Below, one piece after another: positions 3,388-38,263 of a DNA stretch of 42,172 bases (positions within the stretch are counted from its first letter, which is position 1; the number at the start of each line of letters is the position of its first letter). The stretch is taken from positions 1-42,172 of the IMG/VR virus record IMGVR_UViG_3300044699_000102; one strand, 5' to 3'. Made by a program: the position numbers and the translations under genes. This stretch comes from a virus. A model generated the notes under the pieces. It saw only the letters and a list, made by a program, of their open reading frames with translations, ran no database searches and had not been told where the DNA came from.

Positions 3388-3396
3388 TATCCCCGC

Positions 3397-6300
3397 GTGG
3401 CAGCAGGCGGGAACCCCGACGCGATCAAGATTGCGATCGAGCCTGAACTGAACGCAGCGGTCACGCGGGCCGTCGAAGAACAGATGAAGCACCTGGGCGG
3501 TGTCCTCATCGCAGGTGTCGAGCAGGGCAACAAGACCCTGGAGAATCAGGCGAAGAGGGCTGCCACCGAGTTCCGCCGGACAGAGAAGGCCGCCGAGAAC
3601 CTCGGCCGGGCAGTTCATGGGATGGACGACGGCATCAACGGGGCGATGGGGGCGATCAACAAGCAGGTCGAGGGCCTGCTGAATCTGTTCGGCAGACTCA
3701 ATCGTGCCGTCGACGAAAACGTTGCCGCCACACGGTCGGCGACCGAAGTGGCTCGTCGTGGTTCGATCGAACGGACCAACGTCGTCAGTGACGCGGCCCG
3801 CAAGGAGATCGAAAACACCCGCAGGGCGTCGTCGGCTTACATCGTCGAGCAGCAGCGGGAAACATCAACCGCCCGTTCTGCCGCCCTGGAGCGCATCCAG
3901 CAGTCGAGGAACGAAGGTCGGTTGTCGGTTGTCGCTGCGCAGGCGGCAGCGAAACGACGCATCCTCATCACCCAGGCGCTGACGCAGACCATCGGTCGAC
4001 TGGAGAAAGGCCTCGGCGCGGCGATCGCGGCGACCGCCCGTACTGCTGTCTCGGCGTTCTCGAAGGCGTTCGATGCGTTGAAGACTCGGGGTGGTGGGTT
4101 CGCTGGCGCGGTCCGGGAACAGAACGCTGATCTGGCCCGGGAGTTGCGGCGCACCAACTCGGTGGTCGAAACGAACACGAAGGAGATCAACAACTCCTTC
4201 GTCGAAGGGACGAGTCGTTCGCTGAACCAGCGCGAAGACATCATCCGTCGTTCGTTCATCGAGCAGGAACAGATCATCCGGCGGTCGACGGTTCGTCCAG
4301 GAGGCGGCGTTCGCCAAGCTGCGCAAGGTGTCCTCAACAGGGGTCGCTGGTGCCGTGACCGGCAGGGGGATCGGTCTCGGCATTGGCGGCTTGGTCGGCG
4401 GCCTTGGGGTTGCCGCCTTGTTGAAGGAAGGCTTCAAGCAGTCGGTCGACCTCAACGAGCAGTTGAACAAGACGAGGGTCGTGTTCGGCCAGTCGGCGCA
4501 GGCGGTCATCGACTTCTCGAACGATGCGGTCAACTCGCTTGGTGCGACCCGAGCCGAAGCCCTCGGTGCGGCGGCGACGTTCGGCAACCTGTTCCGTGCC
4601 ATCGGTATCGCTGAGGCTCCGTCGGCGAAGATGTCGGACACCCTCGTGCAGTTGGCCGCCGACCTGTCGTCGTTCAACAACGTCGACATCGACCAGGCGT
4701 TCGATGCGCTCGGGCCGGTCTGACCGGCGAAACGGAACCGTTGAAGCGATTCGGTGTCAACCTCAACGAACAGACGTTGAAGGCCAAGGCTCTCGAACTG
4801 GGGCTCGGTGACGGCAAGGCGGTGCTGTCGGCCTACGCCAAAGCCCAAGCCGCGTTCGCGCTCATCATGGAGCAGACCACCCTTGCCCAGGGTGACTTCG
4901 CACGTACCGCCGACCAGGGTGCCAACGCCCAACGTCGCGCCCAGAAAGCGATGCTGGAGTTCGCTGCGGCGATCGCCGGGACGCTGCGCCCCGCGCTGAC
5001 GGCGTTCTTCAACATTGCCGTCAAGGGTTTCACAGCGCTGACCAAAGTGATCCTCGGTACCAGCCCGCGTTGAAGCTGTTGAAGGACGCCCTGTTCGGCG
5101 CTGCTGCCGGGTTGGCCGCCATCATTCGCCGCCAAGGGTGCGGTGCAGGTCATCCAACTGCTCGGCCAGGCAGTGAAGTTGTCGCTGACCCCGATGGGTC
5201 TGCTGCTCGTCTCGGCGGCGGTTCTCGGTGCTGGCCTGTCGGTCCTGCTGCGCCGCTCCGCTCCGTTGCGGGCAGCGTTCGAAGCGCTCGGTGATCGACT
5301 CGAAGATCTCGGTGCGCGGCTCGTGTCGATCGTCGTTCCGGCGCTGCGTGCCGTCGGCCGGTTCATCGACAACACCGTCATCCCGGCCGTTCAGAAGCTG
5401 GTCATCTTCCTCGCCGAGCATGTCGTCACAGCATTCGATGCGACGTCGAAGTTCATCGTCAACGTCGCTGTCCCGGCGATCGTCCGGGCCTCCCAGTTCA
5501 TCGGCCAGAAGGCCGGTCCAGGGCTGGAAGATTCTCGTCACGTTCTTCGAGAACCGTGTGCTGCCCGTCTATCGGGCGGTGTTGGAGTTCATCAACGAGA
5601 AGGTGATCCCGCGGCTGAGCGCGCTGGCCAAGGTGATCAAGGATGAAGTCGTCGAGGCGTTCAAGCTGTTGACCAGCACCGTCACTGGAACAGTTATTCC
5701 AGCGATCCTCGGCCTCGGCCTGGCGTTCGGCCCGGTCGGTTTCGCTGTGGCTGCAGGCAACGTCGGCGATCATCTTCTTCTGGGATTCGATCCGACCGAT
5801 CCTGGAGCCAGCAATCGAAGGCTTCGAGACCCTCGGCTAGCGCCCTCGCCAAGGCGTTCACTCTCGGCGACTTCTCCGACATCGGTTCCGGTCTCGCCGC
5901 CGCCGCCACCGGTATCGGCCGGGTTTGCCCGCACGATCGGCGGGCCTCATCGTCGACGTGCTGGCTGCTGCTGGCCGTACTGTCGTCTCCTTCTTGAAGG
6001 ATGTCTTCTCGCTGCCGCACCTTCTCGCCGCCGGGAAGGGCTTCCTCGACTTCGTCGAATTCGTGGGCCGCACCATCGGCAGGATCGTCACCGATCCCCG
6101 GTTCCTCACCGCCGTCGCCGCGCTTGGTGCCGGGCTGGTTGCCTGCCGCCGGGCTGATCGCCTTCCGGTTCTTGAAGGGGTTCGCCGACGCTTTCCTCGA
6201 CAACCTCGGCGCGAACGTCTCACTGATCGGTGGGGCGTTGCTCACCGCCCTCGTCGCCGCGTTCAACTTCGCTTTGCACAACGTCGCGCTGGTGACGACC

Positions 6301-8705
6301 ATCGGGCTGGGCCTGTTCGCCCTGTTCCGGTCGCGCCAGATCTTCCAGGGCTTCCAGAAGGCAGGCGGCGAAGGGGCCAAGGGTTTCGTCAAAGGGTTCG
6401 CGACGTCGCTGCGGTCAGCGGGCACCAACTCCCGTGACTTTGTCGGCGGCCTGTTCGGGAGTCAAGCCCTCCCGACCGCCACGGGTCAGTTCAAGGACCT
6501 GCAACGGGAGATCCTCGGGTACAGACAAAGCTGCGGATTCTCGGCTCGACAACGTGGGTGAACGCCCGAACCTGTCTTCGGCCGCGAGGAACTGGACCTG
6601 TTCGGCCAACGGGTGTCCGACGCCCGGTTGAAAGGCCTCATCCTTCGCGACACGTTCAAGAACGTCGGCAGCGGGATCGCCACGATCTTCCGTGGCCTGG
6701 GCACGTCGGTGAGGTCGGCGCTGGCCGGTGTCAGGCAGGGTGTCGTCGATTCGCTGGCCGCGACCAACGTGTACGCCGGTGGTGGTGGCAAGGCGGGGTC
6801 GGCCTTCGTCGAAGGGTTCCGCTCGAAGTTCAAGGGCGCAGCGGGGTCGCTGAGTACCGGGTTCGCTACCGTTCTCGCCGGGCTGCAACGTGGGTTCGCG
6901 GCGAGCGGCGCGACAATCGGTCAGGTGTTCGGCAAGGCGCTGGCGGGCGGCGCGATCGCTGCCGTTGCGGCGATCGGTGGGTTCACTGCCGGGAAGGCGG
7001 AGGGGAGCGCCGGGGGTTCCGGTCTACTTGCGGCGATCATCGGTGGCGTCGGTGTCGGCGCCGCGATCGGGGGGCCGTTCGGTGCCGCTGTCGGCGCGAT
7101 CACTGGTGGTGCAGCACTGATCGTGCCTCGTTCGGCCGTGCCGAGAAGAAAGGCCAAGGAGTTCCGCGAGGAAGTCGACAAGCTGGCCGGAATTCTCAGC
7201 GACGACCTGGTGGACGGGCTCAAGGACGGCAACCGTTGCGCTCGACGACTTCGGCAACATCAACCTCGACGTGTCGGGGCTGTTGACGCTCGGCGACAAC
7301 TTCCAGCAGACCATCGACCAGTTCGGCAGCAAGCTGTCGTAGGGACGATCGAGAATCTCAACAAGGCGCTGGGCCCAGGGTCGCTGAGTCGGGTGCTGCA
7401 GATCTTCAAGAGCGTCAACGGTGACTTCGACAAGTTCACCGACGTCTTCAACAAGACCCTGATCAAGAACGCCACCAACACCCAGGAGTTTTTGACATTG
7501 TCGGCGGCGACAACGGCCTGGCCGAGAAGGTCCGTGACGCGCTGGCGAAGATCGCCGCCCCTGGTGGCCCGGCGACGGCTGGTGACCTGCAGCGCCCCGA
7601 CATCATCAAGCAACTCGGCCTCGACACCGACGTGTCGGCGCTGATTGTTCGCAACCAGAAGTTCTTCGATTCGATCTTGAAGACCGCCGGTGCTGTCGGC
7701 GGCGAAGCCAAAGCGTTGGCCGAAGCAGCGAAGGAGGCCCTGCTGCTCGCGATGCGACCCGAGACGTCGTCAGTGCCAGTCAATCCTTCGAGCGCAAGGA
7801 CAGCCCGTTCACCAAGATCGAACAGTCCGCCAAGGATGCCAGTCAGGCCACAGCCGACCATGCCCGAGACATCGCTTTGCACATCCTGTCGATCGGCGGA
7901 ACGGCCGATGATGTCAACGAGCGGTTGTCGAAGATCGGGTTGCCGCCACTCGACGACGAACAGATCAAGAACATCACCGACGGGCTTGGTGACACCGCAT
8001 CCGCCGCCGAGGCGATCAACGCCCAACTCGAACTGATGCCCGACAACTTCGCGGCGGCGTTCAACGCGGCGAACGGGATCGTGCCGACCATCGACATTTC
8101 GGCGGCGATCACCCAGACCGATGGTCTTGCTTCGGCGTTGCAGCGGGCGGTCGGCGACAAGAACAACCCGCTGACCCCGGTGATCGGCCAGGCCGAATTC
8201 GTCGAAGCCACCGGCGACATCGGCGAACTGGTCGGCAAGGTGTTGGCGCAGGGCATCCAGAACAAGACGATTGTCGACGAGGCCACGGCGGCGGCGTACG
8301 TCAAGCCGATCCAGGACGCGTTGCTCGAAGCCCTCGGACCACGACCCGATCAGGCGGTCGACCCGACGGCGGCAGCGAACTGGCAGGCGACATCGGACGC
8401 CATCAAGCTGATCTTCATCAACGGCCTGTCGGTATCACCCCGGAGATCGACGCAGCAGCGATGGCCCAGAAGGCGCAGGAAGATCTGGCGAACATGCCGC
8501 CGCTGATCATCAACGGGAAACTGCAGTTCGGTGACCTGACCAATCCGCTGGCCACGATCCGTCCGGGGTTCAACAACCAGCAGGCATCGAGCGCGCCGCT
8601 GATCGGCACGCTGAACATCAACGGGCAACGAACCCGACACAGACAGCGAATCAGGTCGCCAACGCGGTGCGGAGTACAGCGAACGTTTTGAAGGGGGTCA
8701 GCTAA
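3397..8705 (+). CDS. Tape measure protein (reading frame broken many times)
   Basis: About 5.3 kb, equivalent to roughly 1,770 residues, starting at GTG 3397 and ending at TAA 8703-8705. It sets tail length and is the longest gene in the window, directly after the chaperone. Residues 1-300 are a long charged helical region rich in Ala, Arg, Glu and Gln. Hydrophobic glycine/alanine segments follow (for example around 4360-4440, 5150-5250, 6180-6330 and 6940-7130), then a helical C-terminal part ending in VLKGVS. Protein sense moves between the three frames at about 4320, 4725, 5070, 5130, 5515, 5765, 5850, 6145, 6550, 7140, 7235, 7345, 7495, 7760, 8435 and 8630. Its continuity across these points argues for indel errors in one gene rather than many small genes. 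Confidence 0.85.
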
Positions 8706-25987: not shown

Positions 25988-26241
25988 GCGGTGCATTCCT
26001 CGATGGCGTACCGGCAGAAGGCGATGATGTCGTCGCTGACCGGCGCAGCCGCCGAACGGTGAGCGTCGATCAGGTTGTAGACGGCGACCAGCCGCGCCGC
26101 CGTGGGAGCGTTGGCGCGGCTGGTCACCACGTCGAGGGCGTCATCAAACCCCTTGTGGTATTCGCACAGGCGGCCACGCCATGCAGCGTCACCGCAGCAG
26201 CCCTTGACCTGTTCGACGGTGAGGGGATCGTAGTTAGGCAC
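25984..26241 (-). CDS. Hypothetical protein with Cys/His cluster
   Basis: An 85-residue protein starting at GTG 26241 (VPNYDPLTVEQV). VKGCCGDAAWRGRLCEYHKGFDD contains CC-x8-C-x2-H and is a frequent phage motif of unknown function (C-x-Y-H-x-G-F). The rest is helical (AARLVAVYNLIDAHRS, SDDIIAFCRYAIEE). It overlaps the SSB gene by eight bases. A longer in-frame extension upstream would duplicate SSB sequence in another frame and is rejected. Confidence 0.5.
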   Translation of the reverse strand: MPNYDPLTVEQVKGCCGDAAWRGRLCEYHKGFDDALDVVTSRANAPTAARLVAVYNLIDAHRSAAAPVSDDIIAFCRYAIEECTA

Positions 26242-26608
26242 GGGTCCGCTCGGTTCGTGCCACCTCGCAGGTCGCCCATCGCAGATCGGGCCCGAGGGAA
26301 TCAATCTGCATGGTGATCTTCGACCGCTTCGCCCCCGTCTCCTTGTCTTCCCATTCGTCCATGTCCAACCGGCCGAAGCCGACGACCCGGTTGCCTTTCG
26401 ACAACGACTGGGCGATGTTCTCGGCGAGGGAATCCCACGCCGTGGCTTCGAGCCATGTCGTCTTCTCGATCCACTCGTCGGAGTCACGCGACTTGTACCG
26501 GTGGCCGACGGCGATACGAACCGAGCAGAGGGCTTTGCCCGTCGCCGTGAATTTCAATTCGGGGTCAGCCCCGAGCGTTCCGACGAGTCGGACTTCTCCG
26601 TCGCTCAT
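26234..26608 (-). CDS. ssb: Single-stranded DNA-binding protein
   Basis: A 124-residue OB-fold protein starting at ATG 26608 (MSDGEVRLVGTLGADPELKF). VRLVGTLGADPELK, ALCSVRIAVGHRYK, EKTTWLEATAWDSLAENIAQSLSKGNRVVGFGRL and WEDKETGAKRSKITM (each cited as short blocks) follow bacterial SSB strand by strand: V-G-x-L-x-x-D-P-E-L-x-x-T, T-x-W-x-x-x-x-x-W-x-x-x-A-E, and K-G-x-x-V-x-x-x-G-R-L. It lacks the long acidic C-terminal tip of host SSB. It coats single strands for phage replication and recombination. ATGA overlap with the HIRAN gene. Confidence 0.85.
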   Translation of the reverse strand: MSDGEVRLVGTLGADPELKFTATGKALCSVRIAVGHRYKSRDSDEWIEKTTWLEATAWDSLAENIAQSLSKGNRVVGFGRLDMDEWEDKETGAKRSKITMQIDSLGPDLRWATCEVARTERTRA

Positions 26609-26943
26609 GTGTTGATTGCCTCCAGTGTGATTTCGATACCCGGGCGTTCCGGATGATCGGGATTGATCTTCAAGTACGACACGTGACCATCCCAGACGAC
26701 GCCGTTGTCGATCGTCGGGGCCAGCCGCGCCGCGACAGGTTTGGTGATGTAGCCGATGAATCCTGCCTCGCCGAGGGCGGGGACGTGGACTTGGCAGGCG
26801 TTCGAATCGTAAGGGTTGTTCGGGTCGCGGACGATGATCGCCGCCAGCTTCTCGCCTTTGGCTTCGGCGTCGAACGCCTGCGTCTCCAACTCCCACAGGT
26901 TGTGGGGGTAGTACGGGGTGAACGACACGCCGACGACTGCCAT
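26605..26943 (-). CDS. HIRAN-domain protein
   Basis: A 112-residue protein from ATG 26943 (GGAAGG five bases upstream). VVGVSFTPYYP is the opening strand. LAAIIVRDPNNPYDSNACQVHV (about 33-54) has the R-x-P-x-N-P-x-D-x-N-A hallmark. GEAGFIGYITKPVAARLAP (58-76) has the G-(F/Y)-I-G-Y-I-x-x-x-x-A signature and a final strand is IEITLEA. HIRAN domains bind 3' ends of single-stranded DNA, as in the replication-fork remodeller HLTF, and also occur stand-alone in bacteria and phages. Sitting beside ssb fits a DNA-end recognition role. The identification by motif is fairly strong. Confidence 0.7.
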   Translation of the reverse strand: MAVVGVSFTPYYPHNLWELETQAFDAEAKGEKLAAIIVRDPNNPYDSNACQVHVPALGEAGFIGYITKPVAARLAPTIDNGVVWDGHVSYLKINPDHPERPGIEITLEAINT

Positions 26944-26949
26944 GTCGAA

Positions 26950-27088
26950 CCTTCCGTGGCATCGGGGTGTCCAGCTTCGACCGGGCCTGCTTGTCAAGCT
27001 GCGCCTGTCGTGTCGCTCGGATCTTGTCGCCGTCGTCCTTCTGATCCTTCTTGTGCTTGATCTCGGACCAGGGCTTGTGGCCGCTCAC
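26950..27088 (-). CDS. Small lysine-rich protein (3' end unclear)
   Basis: Begins at GTG 27088, overlapping the previous stop as GTGA. About 46 residues of sense, strongly charged (VSGHKPWSEIKHKKDQKDDGDKI, cited as HKPWSEIKHKKDQKDDGD, then RATRQAQLDKQARSKLD). The same frame continues with no stop into the HIRAN/SSB region, where it is clearly a shadow. A one-base error, or an unusual overlap, is needed to end this gene near 26950. The lysine-rich helical composition suggests a nucleic-acid-binding or disordered protein. Confidence 0.4.
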
Positions 27089-27366
27089 TGTGCCGACCAC
27101 CGTTCCAGGCGAATGCGATCCTGCTCCATGAGCCGTCGAAGGCCCTCGGCGCGCTCGGGGTCCGGCGGCGCATCGAGCCGTTCGACGAGCGAGTCGTAGC
27201 TTTCCTCGGACAAGATCCATATTGGGTGGGGCGGGTTCAGCCACTTGGCGGGCGCTGGCTTGCCCTTCCAGAACGGGCCGCCGTAGGTGCCGAACTGTTC
27301 GGCTTCCAGTTGACCCTGCTCGATGATGTAATTCAGTTCGGCTTCGTCTCCGTAGTCGTCGTTCAT
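27085..27366 (-). CDS. Hypothetical acidic protein
   Basis: A 93-residue protein from ATG 27366, sharing a base with the preceding stop (TGATG). An acidic N-terminus (DDYGDEAELNYIIEQGQLEAEQF) precedes a Pro/Gly/Trp-rich middle (YGGPFWKGKPAPAKWLNPPHP) and a helical tail (ERAEGLRRLMEQDRIRLERW). The middle would suit a small structured patch. No family identified; the surroundings are DNA recombination genes. Confidence 0.5.
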   Translation of the reverse strand: MNDDYGDEAELNYIIEQGQLEAEQFGTYGGPFWKGKPAPAKWLNPPHPIWILSEESYDSLVERLDAPPDPERAEGLRRLMEQDRIRLERWSAQ

Positions 27367-28151
27367 CAGAATGGTTCCTCGTCTCCCAGGGCGGCGATCG
27401 CCTCCTGGCGTCGCTGCTCGTACCGTTCGGTGGTGCCGGGTTCGGCCTTCGCTGCCGGATCGGCCGCTGTGGCGTAGTTGGTGTCGGCGAGGCCTTCGAT
27501 GAAGGCGACGATCGCGTCGACGTGGTCACCGGCTTTCATCACGTTGTTGCATCCGAGTTCGCGGGCGTATTCGACCACGACCCGTTTCTCGCCGCCTTCC
27601 AACATGGCGAACCGGCGGGCCAGTGCCTGTTCCGGTGACGGCTCATCCGATCCGGCGTCGGCATGGTCTTCTTCCATTGTGCTGCCGGGGAAGGCGGCTT
27701 CGAGCGATTCCTGAGGGCCCGGCCGGGAAAGGGTGACCAGCGCCGGGCCCTCAGGAGAACTGTTGTTCGACACGTACCCTACTGTCGCGTTCGGGTACCA
27801 CTGCATGAGCAGCTTCAATTCGCTCAGCCGTTGGGGGATACCGGCGTCACGCAGCGCCCGGCCCAGGGCCTTCGTCTCGTCTTTGGCGAGTTCCTCCGGT
27901 GTCTGTGGTCGCTCCCGGTTGCGGTCCCGCAGGTCGATCTCTTTGTGGGCGACGATGAAGGTGCCGTCGGCGAAGATGATCGTGCAACGCACCGCCTCCG
28001 CCGCCTTGCCTTCGTACTCACGGTGGCCCATCGGGAACGCGTCGGCGATGTCGACGACCTCGTAGCCGATCTGCGCGCCAGGGAAGATGCGGTGGAACAC
28101 TGCCGCCCGCAGGATGGGACTGGCATAGTCTTCGAGTCCGCGTTCGGGCAT
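27366..28151 (-). CDS. Putative ssDNA annealing/recombination protein
   Basis: An intact 261-residue protein. The N-terminal half (RAAVFHRIFPGAQIGYEV, RCTIIFADGTFIVAHKEIDL, KDETKALGRALRDAGI) has the features of phage annealing proteins of the ERF/Rad52-like superfamily: a beta-rich core followed by the A-x-x-x-A-L-x-x-A-L-x-x-A-G-I helix. The C-terminal half is acidic and flexible (TMEEDHADAGSDEPSPEQAL), then helical with VVVEYARELGC, and ends YEQRRQEAIAALGDEEPF. Within 1.5 kb lie SSB and HIRAN genes, and RusA is 3 kb away, which together form a plausible replication-recombination module. The family is uncertain; only the composition and K-A-L-G-R-A-L motif support it. Confidence 0.45.
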   Translation of the reverse strand: MPERGLEDYASPILRAAVFHRIFPGAQIGYEVVDIADAFPMGHREYEGKAAEAVRCTIIFADGTFIVAHKEIDLRDRNRERPQTPEELAKDETKALGRALRDAGIPQRLSELKLLMQWYPNATVGYVSNNSSPEGPALVTLSRPGPQESLEAAFPGSTMEEDHADAGSDEPSPEQALARRFAMLEGGEKRVVVEYARELGCNNVMKAGDHVDAIVAFIEGLADTNYATAADPAAKAEPGTTERYEQRRQEAIAALGDEEPF

Positions 28152-33930: not shown

Positions 33931-34269
33931 TCAGGCGGGGACGAAGGTGTACTCGCCGGTCGACGCGCGACCGAGCCAGTAGCCGACGCCCGCGAACCGT
34001 GCGTCGTTGTTGCGACGTGCACGGGACTCGTACTTGTAGCCGTCGACCCGGTTGCCGTTGACGTCGTAGACGACGAAGTCGCGGACGATCTTGAGCGGCG
34101 CAGGGGCGTCGGTGACGTTCCGCCAGCCGTCGACCGTCATGGCGTTCAACACGAACTCACTGCCGCCCTCGACGGGCGTGCAGATGAGGAACGAGTCGGT
34201 CGCCTTGATGACTTCGGCGGTGACGCCGTGGCCGTTGGTGATGGTGTTGCCCTCGGTGATTCCGTTCAT
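33931..34269 (-). CDS. Hypothetical protein
   Basis: A 112-residue protein from ATG 34269, with GAAAGGAG six to seven bases upstream. GITEGNTITNGHGVTAEVIKATDSFLICTPVE (cited GHGVTAEVIKATDSFLIC) is strand-rich. KIVRDFVVYDVNGNRVDGYKYESRARR continues it and the end is VGYWLGRASTGEYTFVPA. A small beta-barrel is plausible. An in-frame continuation upstream runs into the zinc-ribbon gene and is not part of this protein, since this start has its own ribosome-binding site. Confidence 0.5.
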   Translation of the reverse strand: MNGITEGNTITNGHGVTAEVIKATDSFLICTPVEGGSEFVLNAMTVDGWRNVTDAPAPLKIVRDFVVYDVNGNRVDGYKYESRARRNNDARFAGVGYWLGRASTGEYTFVPA

Positions 34270-34345
34270 CGTGGCTCTCCTTTCTCCCCTCTCGGGGTCT
34301 TGTACCTGCCCGCTGTCTGCGGACAGGGAATGTGCTGACTGAACA

Positions 34346-34536
34346 CTAGTTCTTGACATAGTATGCAGTCGAGAAGTTTCGATGGTTCGACGTTGGAACC
34401 CGCAGCGCTCGCAGCGGTCCACGTTGTCGGCCCAGGAATACCAGTCGTGGCCGACCGTCCTGCAGCGCTCGGAGGCGAGCCTTTCGAGATGCCCGCTGTA
34501 GACGATGCGGCGCGACACGGCCTCGGCCCACGTCAT
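34346..34536 (-). CDS. Small zinc-ribbon-like protein (3' end uncertain)
   Basis: Starts at ATG 34536 (MTWAEAVSRRIVYSGHLERL), ATGA-coupled to the amidoligase gene. RCRTVGHDWYSWADNVDRCERCGFQRRT (cited CRTVGHDWYSWADN and DRCERCGFQRR) carries C-x-x-C, with a Cys and a His upstream, as in a zinc ribbon. After that point the frame either runs on toward the next gene or, with a one-base error, ends at TAG 34346. Because the following gene has its own ribosome-binding site, an early end is preferred. Its position directly after the amidoligase suggests co-function with that cassette. Confidence 0.45.
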
Positions 34537-35552
34537 GCGGCCACCTCGACTTCGGCGGCGTAGCGGGCACGCATGTACGCCGCTTGCCGTTCGATCAGCG
34601 GACGCAGATCGGGGTCGGCGTCACAGACAATGTCGATGAACCGTGCCATCGGCACCGTCGGCCGTTTCGTCGGATGCGACGTGGGCAGTTCAGAGAACGC
34701 CGGTCGGGCGATTTCACCCCACGGCGAATCGCAGCCCTCCGGCCAGAACGACCCGCCCTTGACCGTGGTTTCGACCTCGGTGCGCAGTTCGGGTGCAGCC
34801 TCAACAAAGGCGCACGCCAGTCGGCAGGCGAGTTCGATACGCCACGGCGAGTTGGTGGCGTTGAAGCACCTGAACTCCCAGGTGCCGTTGTTGCGCGACC
34901 AGTTCAGATCGACGTGGCGGTCGGTGGCGATCACCTGGAGCAGGATTTCATCGAGTTGACCGCGGCCCATGTCCATCCAGTCGGTGTTCATGCCGCGCCC
35001 ACCCCAGTTGTTCGACACGTACTGGCGGAACGCCTCCATCAGCGTCATGTTCATTTCACGCTTGCGGATCGACGCGCCGGGGGCCACGATTTCGGTGAAG
35101 TACCGTTCGTAGGCCAGGTAGGCGGCGGGGACGATGCGGTGCCGTTGCAGCCGCGACGGGTTGCGGGTGTCGGCGTTGAGGGTGTCGACGTGGACGTGCA
35201 GCCCGCACCGGTTGTTGACCGTGGCGTTGGCGTCACGTGCAGCCTCCGTCAACCCGGTGGCGATCTCGTTGAAATCGTCCCAGTCGGTGATCGGCCGGGT
35301 GATGAATTCGCCGTTGGCTGTCGAATCCCGCTGTGCCCGGAGTGGCATCGGTCGATGCGTGGTGTTGTTCCCGTCCCGGCCGTAGTGGACGAAATCCGTG
35401 AACTGGCAGTATTCGCACCGGCAGTGGTAGTCGTGCAGGTGGTCGCAGCCCAACAGCCCGTTCAGGCTGGGGTCGTACAACCGTCGCACCATGTCTTCTG
35501 CGCCGCTGGCGTATTCGAGTTCGAACCCGAATTTACGCAGGGTTGCTGGCAT
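34533..35552 (-). CDS. Amidoligase-family enzyme 1
   Basis: An intact 339-residue protein. FGFELEY (8-14) is the first strand with the acidic metal ligand of the glutamine-synthetase-like amidoligase fold. DSTANGEFITRPI (76-88), CGLHVHVD (116-123) and TWEFRCFN (224-231) are the further family signatures (D...GEFxxxP, G-x-H-x-H-x-D, and the E-x-R strand). Members form amide bonds between a carboxylate and an amine using ATP. A CHCRCEYC-like cysteine cluster (about 43-49) is an extra element that may bind zinc. The start (GAAAGGAG, six bases before ATG 35552) lies within the end of the amidotransferase gene, so the two are translated together. Confidence 0.75.
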   Translation of the reverse strand: MPATLRKFGFELEYASGAEDMVRRLYDPSLNGLLGCDHLHDYHCRCEYCQFTDFVHYGRDGNNTTHRPMPLRAQRDSTANGEFITRPITDWDDFNEIATGLTEAARDANATVNNRCGLHVHVDTLNADTRNPSRLQRHRIVPAAYLAYERYFTEIVAPGASIRKREMNMTLMEAFRQYVSNNWGGRGMNTDWMDMGRGQLDEILLQVIATDRHVDLNWSRNNGTWEFRCFNATNSPWRIELACRLACAFVEAAPELRTEVETTVKGGSFWPEGCDSPWGEIARPAFSELPTSHPTKRPTVPMARFIDIVCDADPDLRPLIERQAAYMRARYAAEVEVAA

Positions 35553-37128
35553 TCATTGCTCCTTTCTGTGCCTTGATGACGACTTCGTATTCGGCGTGGC
35601 TGTCGATGGTTCCTTGCAGCCACTCGACTTCGAAGCGTTCGGTTTCGACGTGGTACTTGACGATCCGGCCGATGATTCCGCCGAACGTCTGGATGCCGCC
35701 GAGCAGTCGGTTGGGGACGTAGATGACGTCCCCGACGCTGGCGATGCCGTGACGGTTATCGCCGGACAAGGAATCGGCGGAGTCCTCGACGAGACGGTCG
35801 AAGTCGGCCCATTGCGCCGCCGTCTTGCAGTCCGGTGAGTGGAAAGGGAGCACCACCGCCTCGGTGGCCGGTTCCTCCTGTTTCGTCACGATGATCTGGG
35901 CGACACCGTCACCATCGGCCTCGATCGACACTGTCTTGTCGGACCCATCCGTTCCGGTAGTGGAGATCGGGCGGCTGGACACGAGACGTGTTCCGTTGGG
36001 CAGGGTTTCGGTTCGTACCAATTGGCTGCCGACCACTTCGGTCTTGACCAGTGGTGCTTTTGGGCCGTTGGTGTCCACCACCTCTTTCCAACCGGTGACG
36101 TTCGGTGACGCACTGGTGCAGATTTCGACGTGGACGATGCCGTCGCTGTCGAAGAACTTGCGCCGGTCACCGACCTTCGGGCTCTTAGGATCGCCGGAGA
36201 CGGTGACCCTTTCGTACGGCCTTGCGTTGGTCGTGCTTGCGTCTTTTGGGCGTCGTTGCCCCGGGTTCGTCGCGGCCAGGTAGCCGCCGCCCGTTTTGGC
36301 GTAGGGATTGTCGTCGTCGTCCCAGTTGCTGTAGCCGCCCCAGGCATGGCCGTAGCCTTGCGTTTGGGCCATGCTGGCGTGGGTGTAGCGGGTCCGTTTG
36401 GCGACCGAGTTCTTGCCGGAACCGTCGAACGGTTCCATGACAGTCAGCCCGTTGCCGTCGCAGTAGGCCAGGAAGCCTTGCGGCGCGGTGGTGATGTGCT
36501 TGTACTCGACGTCTTTGATCCCGCCCCATGTGGCCGCCTCTTTGACGGCGCTGGCGGTGCTGGCGAAGATGACCGAACCGTTGGTGGTGGTCATGTACTC
36601 CAGTGGGCTGGTTTCACCACGTGCCAGCCACAGACGCTTCGGATCGACAGCAGTGTCGACCCAGGCGATCGCCCAGCCAGCCTCGATGTTCTCCAAGGCT
36701 TCGCGGAGCGGAAGGTGGGCGAGTGCGGCGAAGATCGCCTCCGAATCCACTGCGGCCTTGCGTTCCCACTTGAAGTGGGAGAACAGGTCGTCGTCGTTGT
36801 AGACGATGCCGTTGTGGATGCCGACGATGTTGCTGTACTCGATCGGATGGTTGTTGAGGTTGTTCTCGGGCCGTCCCTGTGTGGCGGCTCTGGTGTGCAA
36901 CAGCAAGGTCTGTGCGGACCTGCCGATGCCTTCCCTGCCTGCCAAGAACACGTTGGCTTGAACAGCCTTCTTGCGTAGCTTGAAGCGACCCTTGCGATCA
37001 ACGGTGAAGATGCCGGTGGCGTCGGAGCCACGCTTCATCATGTCGATGCCGAGGGACCATGTCATGGCCTCGGTGTTGATCAGGCCAAGGTCGCCGTCAG
37101 CGATACGAAAGCCTGCGATTCCGCACAT
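35533..37128 (-). CDS. Class II glutamine amidotransferase with C-terminal extension
   Basis: An intact 531-residue protein. MCGIAGFRIADG supplies the N-terminal nucleophile Cys2 of Ntn-type amidotransferases. RGSDATGI (33-40), HTRAATQG (78-85), NNHP (92-95) and GIHNG (103-107) match the glutaminase domain (residues 2 to about 210). It releases ammonia from glutamine. Residues 240-470 are Gly/Ser/Asp-rich and less conserved in look. About 470-520 (GDVIYVPNRLLGG, GGIIGRIVKYHVETERFEVEWL) resembles an SH3-like barrel. No synthetase domain is fused, so ammonia or glutamine-derived amine is probably used by the flanking amidoligases. Ribosome-binding site GAAAGGAG lies upstream of 37128, preceded by a small GCCTC-GTT-GAGGC hairpin. 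Confidence 0.85.
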   Translation of the reverse strand: MCGIAGFRIADGDLGLINTEAMTWSLGIDMMKRGSDATGIFTVDRKGRFKLRKKAVQANVFLAGREGIGRSAQTLLLHTRAATQGRPENNLNNHPIEYSNIVGIHNGIVYNDDDLFSHFKWERKAAVDSEAIFAALAHLPLREALENIEAGWAIAWVDTAVDPKRLWLARGETSPLEYMTTTNGSVIFASTASAVKEAATWGGIKDVEYKHITTAPQGFLAYCDGNGLTVMEPFDGSGKNSVAKRTRYTHASMAQTQGYGHAWGGYSNWDDDDNPYAKTGGGYLAATNPGQRRPKDASTTNARPYERVTVSGDPKSPKVGDRRKFFDSDGIVHVEICTSASPNVTGWKEVVDTNGPKAPLVKTEVVGSQLVRTETLPNGTRLVSSRPISTTGTDGSDKTVSIEADGDGVAQIIVTKQEEPATEAVVLPFHSPDCKTAAQWADFDRLVEDSADSLSGDNRHGIASVGDVIYVPNRLLGGIQTFGGIIGRIVKYHVETERFEVEWLQGTIDSHAEYEVVIKAQKGAMNASNPA

Positions 37129-37170
37129 AGGCGAAATCTCCTTTCTGCCTCGTTGAGGCGGGTTGATGGG

Positions 37171-38219
37171 TTAGCTGAGGTTGCAGATGAGATCGCGAGC
37201 GATGTCGAACTGCGGGGGCGACGGGATGTAGGCACGGATGCCTCGCACCAGTTCGCCCTTGTTGTCGGTGACCTCCTGGAAGGTCGTGTCGGTGATGGCG
37301 TCGGTGTAGCTGTCGCCGTAGTAGCGACTGGACGTCCGCACGCGGCGCTCCTTGAAGGCGAAGACGGGCATGTTGACGGCGATGTTGAACGCCCACCGGG
37401 TGATGCCGATCGACAATCCGAGATGCGCCCACAGGCGCTCCGGATCGCGTGGCGTGTTCCACAGTCGGTGTTCGAACGTGCCGTTGTAGTGACGTTCCAC
37501 CCAGTTGCCGTAGTCGTGGGTGCCGGGCTTGCGGTTGTAGGCCCGCAGTGCCCCGCAGCCGCCGTCGGCGATGTCGTTCCAGTGGAAGATGGCGTAGATG
37601 GCGTCGATGTGCTGGTGGGCACGGGCGATTCTGGCTGTCGGCGAAAGTGTCTGCCGTAGCGATCACCGGTGCAGGACACGTGGACGTGGTTGCCGTTGGC
37701 GTAGTGGCCGTCGGGCATCCAGTTGCCGTCCTTCTTCCATTGCTGAAAGACGGAAACCCACTTGTCGACGTCGTCCGACCACTGTGTGAAGTCGGCGGTG
37801 TCGAGGATGCGGCTGACGAATTCGACGCCGCACGTGCAGTCTTCCTGCGCCGTCATCAACGGGCCGGAACGGTCGTAGCGGCAATCCGAGCAGTCGCAGT
37901 GGTATGCGTGCTGGTACGTGTCGCCGATCATCCGGGCGTCGTAGGCCCGCTGGATGAGCCGACCGACTTCGTCGCTGACGCCGCGGCGGTCGCCGTTGCA
38001 GAAGTCGCACGTGTAGCTGTCGTGCCACTCATCGTCTTCGTCGTAGTAGCCGTCTTCGCACCTGCAGTCGTCGTCATAGCCACGGTCGTCGTTGCGGAGC
38101 ATTTCGTACTCGAATCCGAACCGTCGAACAGCGTCGAACATGACCGGATCGGGCGGGAGTTGCAGCGCCTCAATCACCTGGGAGGTTGTCACCTCCCCTC
38201 GGGTGTCGATGATGGTCAT
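37171..38219 (-). CDS. Amidoligase-family enzyme 2, cysteine-rich (one frame break)
   Basis: Starts at ATG 38219 (GAAAGGAG upstream). FGFEYE (34-39) and GNHVHVSCTG (176-185) match the family motifs. Sense then shifts frame near 37655 and continues RIARAHQHIDAIYAIFHWND and NGTFEHRLWNTP, the E-x-R strand counterpart of TWEFR in enzyme 1, ending SPPQFDIARDLICNLS. About 348 residues. Between motifs 1 and 2 lies a cysteine-rich insert (CRCED at 52, CDFCNGD at 71, HCDCSDC near 107-113, CTCGVEF near 128-133) that probably binds two zincs. Although paralogous to enzyme 1 at motif level, the two differ in length and inserts. Biological substrate unknown. Confidence 0.65.
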
Positions 38220-38263
38220 GACCTGCGCTTCTCCTTTCTTGTCCCGGTGGCCGGTTGGCTACC

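Follow-up and report, generated by a model that had tools for sequence, protein, structure and literature searches.

Gene content and layout of the locus

We analyzed a three-gene module in a 42,172-nucleotide stretch of viral DNA (IMG/VR virus record IMGVR_UViG_3300044699_000102, positions 1 to 42,172; hereafter the window), a contig whose identity as a phage is supported by a terminase gene. The module contains a glutamine amidotransferase gene (GAT) flanked by two amidoligase genes, AmA and AmB, and its order on the minus strand is AmA (from 38219 downwards), GAT (37128-35533) and AmB (35552-34533). The initial annotation described three co-directional genes with amidoligase and amidotransferase motifs, the third overlapping the second, and this arrangement is seen in the window, where all three genes lie on the minus strand and the start of AmB overlaps the end of GAT by 20 bp. 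A AGAAAGGAG ribosome site precedes each gene. The features are as follows, with the evidence in brackets; the ribosome-binding sites are read from the sequence, and L007 and L008 are related phage contigs.

35533..37128, minus strand: GAT, class II (N-terminal nucleophile, Ntn) glutamine amidotransferase of 531 residues with catalytic Cys2 (GATase_6, PHROG 14519, PDB relatives)
34533..35552, minus strand: AmB, intact amidoligase of 339 residues (Amidoligase_2, AlphaFold2 model, Foldseek)
37654..38219, minus strand: AmA N-terminal part, amidoligase-like and in frame, with FGFEYE, a Cys-rich insert and GNHVHVS (translation, frame walk, L007 homology, profile match to AmB)
37171..37662, minus strand: AmA C-terminal part, with the TFEHRLWN motif and stop TAA 37173-37171, in a frame that differs from that of the N-terminal part (translation, L007 homology)
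37608..37677, minus strand: AmA frame-break interval; the gene is one open reading frame (ORF) in L007 and L008, without the break
37881..37910, minus strand: AmA Cys-rich insert HAYHCDCSDC (motif comparison)
35406..35435, minus strand: AmB Cys-rich insert HDYHCRCEYC (motif comparison)
38231..38239, minus strand: AGAAAGGAG ribosome-binding site of AmA
37138..37146, minus strand: AGAAAGGAG ribosome-binding site of GAT
35559..35567, minus strand: AGAAAGGAG ribosome-binding site of AmB, within the end of GAT

Profile scans of viral contigs found the same AmA-GAT-AmB order, which the initial annotation had proposed to look for in other phages, in three uncultured phage contigs (L007, L008 and L011, the last with its AmA cut by the contig end). 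Because both the gene order and the two ligases recur in these three contigs, the cassette is not a chance arrangement.

GAT is a class II glutamine amidotransferase

Pfam, PHROG and motif evidence agree with the initial description of the middle protein as a 531-residue class II glutamine amidotransferase. Specifically, GAT matches GATase_6 (E=6.6e-16) and PHROG 14519, 'glutamine amidotransferase' (E=6.1e-31), and the motifs MCGIAGF, HTR, NNHP and GIHNG are all present, so that the N-terminal Cys and the HTR, NHP and HNG signatures of the class occur together with a GATase profile match. The domain occupies approximately residues 1-205 and is followed by a C-terminal extension of poor conservation, and its PDB relatives are the glutaminase domains of GlmS and PurF. 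There is one GAT copy per genome. Identity to the window GAT is 58% in L007 and 39% in L008, and the nearest GATs in cultured phages are those of Ottawa and Shrooms (35-36%).

The GAT start was assigned on the grounds that Cys2 fixes it. Two of the four phages with the triple cassette use an ATT start codon (L007 4660 and L011 1295); in L011 this ATT is closely preceded by two in-frame stops, with GAAAGGGG before the start. The other GAT starts surveyed (n=34, window included, several near-identical) comprise 33 ATG and 1 GTG. Initiation at so rare a codon as ATT may restrict how much GAT is made.

AmA and AmB belong to the glutamine synthetase-like ligase superfamily

Both flanking proteins were initially assigned to the glutamine synthetase (GS)-like ligase superfamily, an assignment that is upheld for AmB by Pfam and for AmA by its profile match to AmB. 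AmB matches Amidoligase_2 (PF12224) with E=1.7e-8 (35 bits against a curated cut-off of 22) and contains the motifs FGFELEY, CGLHVHVD and TWEFR. Its AlphaFold2 model has a predicted local distance difference test (pLDDT) score of 80.6 and a predicted template modelling (pTM) score of 0.85, and a Foldseek search with this model gave YbdK as the best PDB match (E=1.2e-5, prob 1.00), with Dop, PafA and GS next. A search of solved structures by sequence gave no match for the amidoligases. As for AmA, profile comparison relates it to AmB (98.9% probability, E=2.8e-17) and to other phage amidoligases (E=1.6e-6), and its model matches viral amidoligases with E values down to 2.2e-5. The FGxExE, HxH and ExR motifs are kept in AmA of L007 and L008, which together with the profile relation places AmA in the superfamily. 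Across 25 sequences, AmA of L007 and L008 included, the positions conserved family-wide are G9, E11, E13, E82, G117, H119, H121, E226 and R228 in AmB numbering. A PF12224 scan of genomes G001-G003 (G001 being the L007 phage) found AmB-type genes in G001 and G003 and no AmA. AmA is a ligase lineage that Pfam and PHROGs miss, and the module exposes it.

The twin ligases are related by duplication

Identity to the window AmB is 53% in L007 and 32% in L008, and identity to the window AmA is about 38% and 31%, respectively. An alignment of AmA and AmB was needed to find these relatives among viral contigs, as single-protein pattern scans with AmB and GAT gave no match there. Neither megablast of the 33-42 kb region nor tblastn with AmB and the two AmA parts gave a cultured-phage match, and no close relative of AmA or AmB was found in the cultured phages or plasmids searched.

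In the phylogenetic tree the AmA clade has support of 100/98 and the AmB clade 96/96, and AmA plus AmB are separated from 24 other phage amidoligases with support of 99/96. Within both subtrees the window pairs with L007, and L008 with L011, at mixed support. The four triple-cassette GATs likewise form a group, with weak support (77/93). In addition, all seven AmA and AmB proteins that extend into the region carry an HxYHCxCxxC insert, which the 24 other phage amidoligases all lack. On these sequence comparisons AmA and AmB are paralogues whose duplication has been retained in four diverged phages. In these four, the phages in which they are known, both ligases have kept their catalytic residues; the L011 AmA is cut by the contig end, and that of the window has the frame break.

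The AmA reading frame is broken in the window

The initial annotation treated the upstream protein as an intact ORF carrying all of its motifs, which did not hold up, as the motif phases and a tblastn search both place TFEHR in a different frame. The upstream ORF of 379 residues (37080-38219) is a frameshift chimera in which approximately 181 N-terminal codons are in frame before the break. FGFEYE and GNHVHVS are read in phase 2, the frame of this ORF, and TFEHR (37479-37465) falls outside the ORF, in phase 0. With intact AmA of L007 as the query, the tblastn alignment stays in frame -3 as far as 37677 and resumes in frame -2 at 37608 (L007 residues 180-301), and a frame walk puts the switch at 37653/37654. 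The true AmA gene therefore starts at 38219 and ends with the TAA at 37173-37171, the break lying within it, and AmA as a single 379-residue protein was rejected, its second half being out of frame. Programmed frameshifting was likewise rejected, since AmA is one ORF in L007 (308 residues) and L008 (311 residues) and no classical slippery heptamer was seen on inspection of the sequence.

The L007 phage is colinear with the window, and their terminases are 71-74% identical. Its tape-measure gene is one ORF of 2064 residues, the pieces of which lie in frames 1, 2, 1, 3 and 1 in the window, and an early gene is likewise split in the window relative to the L007 phage. Many apparent frameshifts are seen at 3390-8700 of the window, tape-measure gene included, and elsewhere. 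Because the window has these further frameshifts and L007 and L008 both have an unbroken AmA, the likeliest cause of the AmA break is an assembly (indel) error; general decay of a prophage is a less likely cause of the window frameshifts. A further alternative is that the module is decaying in this phage, with the AmA frameshift a real mutation that leaves only GAT and AmB functional, like the common single-ligase modules. AmA is indeed broken whereas GAT and AmB are intact, but the tape-measure and early genes are broken as well, which argues for indel errors or general decay rather than loss of the module, and we judge this alternative unlikely.

Proposed function and alternatives

We favor, as somewhat probable, the view that the module encodes a split glutamine-dependent amide-forming system made up of GAT and two sister ligases. 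In this proposal GAT, given its family and intact catalytic residues, would hydrolyze glutamine to release ammonia, and AmA and AmB would act as ATP-dependent carboxylate-amine ligases of the glutamine synthetase/YbdK fold that activate carboxylates as acyl phosphates and then form amides with the ammonia from GAT or with an amine. The two ligases arose by duplication of the single amidoligase that precedes GAT in most phages. Since both have been retained with their catalytic residues, they probably differ in substrate or position, or else act together as a heteromer. In a stronger version, which appears rather improbable, the two ligases are obligate partners in a heteromeric or two-site amidoligase whose Cys-rich insert would bind metal; supplied by one glutaminase, this enzyme would yield a doubly amidated host or phage component that single-ligase phages are not known to make.

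The likeliest target, proposed tentatively and by analogy, would be the stem peptide of host peptidoglycan, altered early in infection. We suggest this because peptidoglycan modification, together with a block to superinfection, has been put forward as a hypothesis for the related larger cassettes of LUZ24-, RIO-1- and phiEco32-like phages (PMC5498523, PMC11945000, PMC10580990); the available text of those papers reports no experimental test of a peptidoglycan role. The UFV-P2 cassette contains COOH-NH2_lig, Amidoligase_2, GATase_6, ATP-grasp and gamma-glutamyl cyclotransferase (GGCT) genes (PMC3890496).

Several results weigh against the proposed amide-forming system. COOH-NH2_lig (PF14395), which like GGCT is typical of the published cassette, had no match in genomes G000-G003, nor in any control genome, and our own profile of this family, which finds L003, L005, L034 and RIO-1, found none in L009-L011. 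No GGCT (PF06094) was detected in G000-G003, with the controls positive. AmA falls short of the curated PF12224 cut-off, its read-through protein has no Pfam match, and PHROGs does not recognize it. The structural check, which sustained the expected YbdK- and GS-like fold for AmB, gave a weaker result for AmA (E=5e-3): confidence in the model of L007 AmA is modest (pLDDT 65), and the 34 best PDB matches of that model, although all GS, are weak (E>=5e-3). No test of activity, complex formation or substrate was found for such modules in the literature examined. Finally, the frameshift, if real, leaves this phage with a single working ligase.

The presence of two ligases had initially been taken to suggest a two-step product, which is just one of several readings of a gene duplication. 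The two ligases would here build a small peptide or modified metabolite in successive steps, with GAT supplying ammonia for one of them. Two separately retained paralogues with intact catalytic residues are consistent with such a pathway, as is the resemblance of AmB to YbdK, which PDB entry 1tt4 describes as a predicted glutathione synthase. However, two substrates or a heteromer fit the duplication equally well, and nothing beside the module was recognized as a gene for a peptide precursor, a carrier, a transporter or tailoring, so that we consider stepwise synthesis to have a low probability.

Modification of phage DNA bases through amide formation, as by CmoY (glycine) on 5-carboxymethylcytosine, is less probable still. 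Phage amide ligases that act on DNA do exist, and one cluster has a glutamine-hydrolyzing domain (PMC12783734), but CmoY is an asparagine-synthetase homologue of a different fold. Searches for partner genes were also negative: neither the window nor the L007, L008 and L011 genomes, records that may be incomplete, yielded a PF00145 (C5 cytosine methyltransferase-like) or PF00303 (thymidylate-synthase-like) gene. Modification of a host or phage protein, such as amidation of side chains or addition of a tag such as Pup, is similarly improbable, for although the AmB fold matches ranked after YbdK include the Pup ligase PafA and the depupylase Dop, and protein modification has been proposed for other phage ligases (PMC4431377), the PafA/Dop match is superfamily-level only (E about 2e-3 to 5e-3) and no tag gene is linked to the module.

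Neighboring and other genes

The gene that follows AmB is not known to belong to the module.

33931..34536, minus strand: ORF of 201 residues with a 4-bp overlap with the AmB stop; its C-terminal part is common to the L007 phage

Elsewhere in the window, an ORF at 26234-27529 has a single-stranded DNA-binding protein (SSB) domain (9.5e-23) in its C-terminal part. In the L007 phage, a release-factor-like protein of 130 residues with an RF-1 domain (PF00472, 1.8e-14; L068 10816-11205) is encoded directly before a DnaB-like helicase.

Comparison with known systems

YbdK, a GCS2-type carboxylate-amine ligase, and glutamine synthetase share the predicted fold of AmB but have only about 10-14% identity to it and other partners, a relation at the superfamily level only. 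The CmoX/CmoY phage DNA amide-ligation system (PMC12783734) also comprises phage amide-making enzymes, some with a glutaminase domain; it differs in being an asparagine-synthetase homologue that is not GS-like and in needing a carboxymethyltransferase, and the PF00145 search of the window gave no match.

Closer parallels are found among phage cassettes. The cassette of RIO-1/phiEco32/LUZ24-like podoviruses (RIO-1 genes 8-14; UFV-P2 ORFs 21-29) has GATase_6/Gn_AT_II near Amidoligase_2 and a second GS-like ligase, in co-directional genes outside the structural genes, and the window module has the amidoligase and GATase of this LUZ24/RIO-1 type. In those podoviruses, however, the second ligase is COOH-NH2_lig (PF14395) and ATP-grasp and GGCT are added, whereas the window module has two paralogous ligases, one on either side of GAT (ligase-GAT-ligase). 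In L009-L011, narrow profiles seeded from single sequences found no ATP-grasp ligase. Two large contigs, L033 and L034 (158 and 238 kb), have two GATases and several ligases close together.

An amidoligase also lies beside a class II GATase in Arthrobacter phages Ottawa and Shrooms, mycobacteriophage Marvin and OM43 phages, and in Ottawa, Shrooms and Marvin it is directly upstream, as in AmA-GAT. These pairs differ from the window module in having one ligase only, and the HxYHCxCxxC insert is absent from the Ottawa and Shrooms ligases. The GATase of Marvin is gp106; its gp105 (JF704100 61626-62987; L070 31627-32988) carries the annotation 'glutamine amidotransferase domain protein', yet its match is to the amidoligase profiles (E 5.9e-20).

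The pairing as such is not new. It is common in phages, with larger sets already published (PMC5498523, PMC3890496, PMC11945000), and in 32 of 33 viral loci that we found through GAT, which include several near-identical contigs, an amidoligase lies upstream of GAT, mostly as the only ligase. The placement of an amidoligase directly before a GATase is already known and widespread among phages, and the triple form is its duplicated variant. Although such cassettes are common, a tested substrate was not found in the literature examined. The reduced version described here, with two paralogous ligases and one glutaminase and with GGCT and COOH-NH2 ligase not detected, would be easier to reconstitute, and a comparison of one- with two-ligase phages would address the contribution of the additional ligase.

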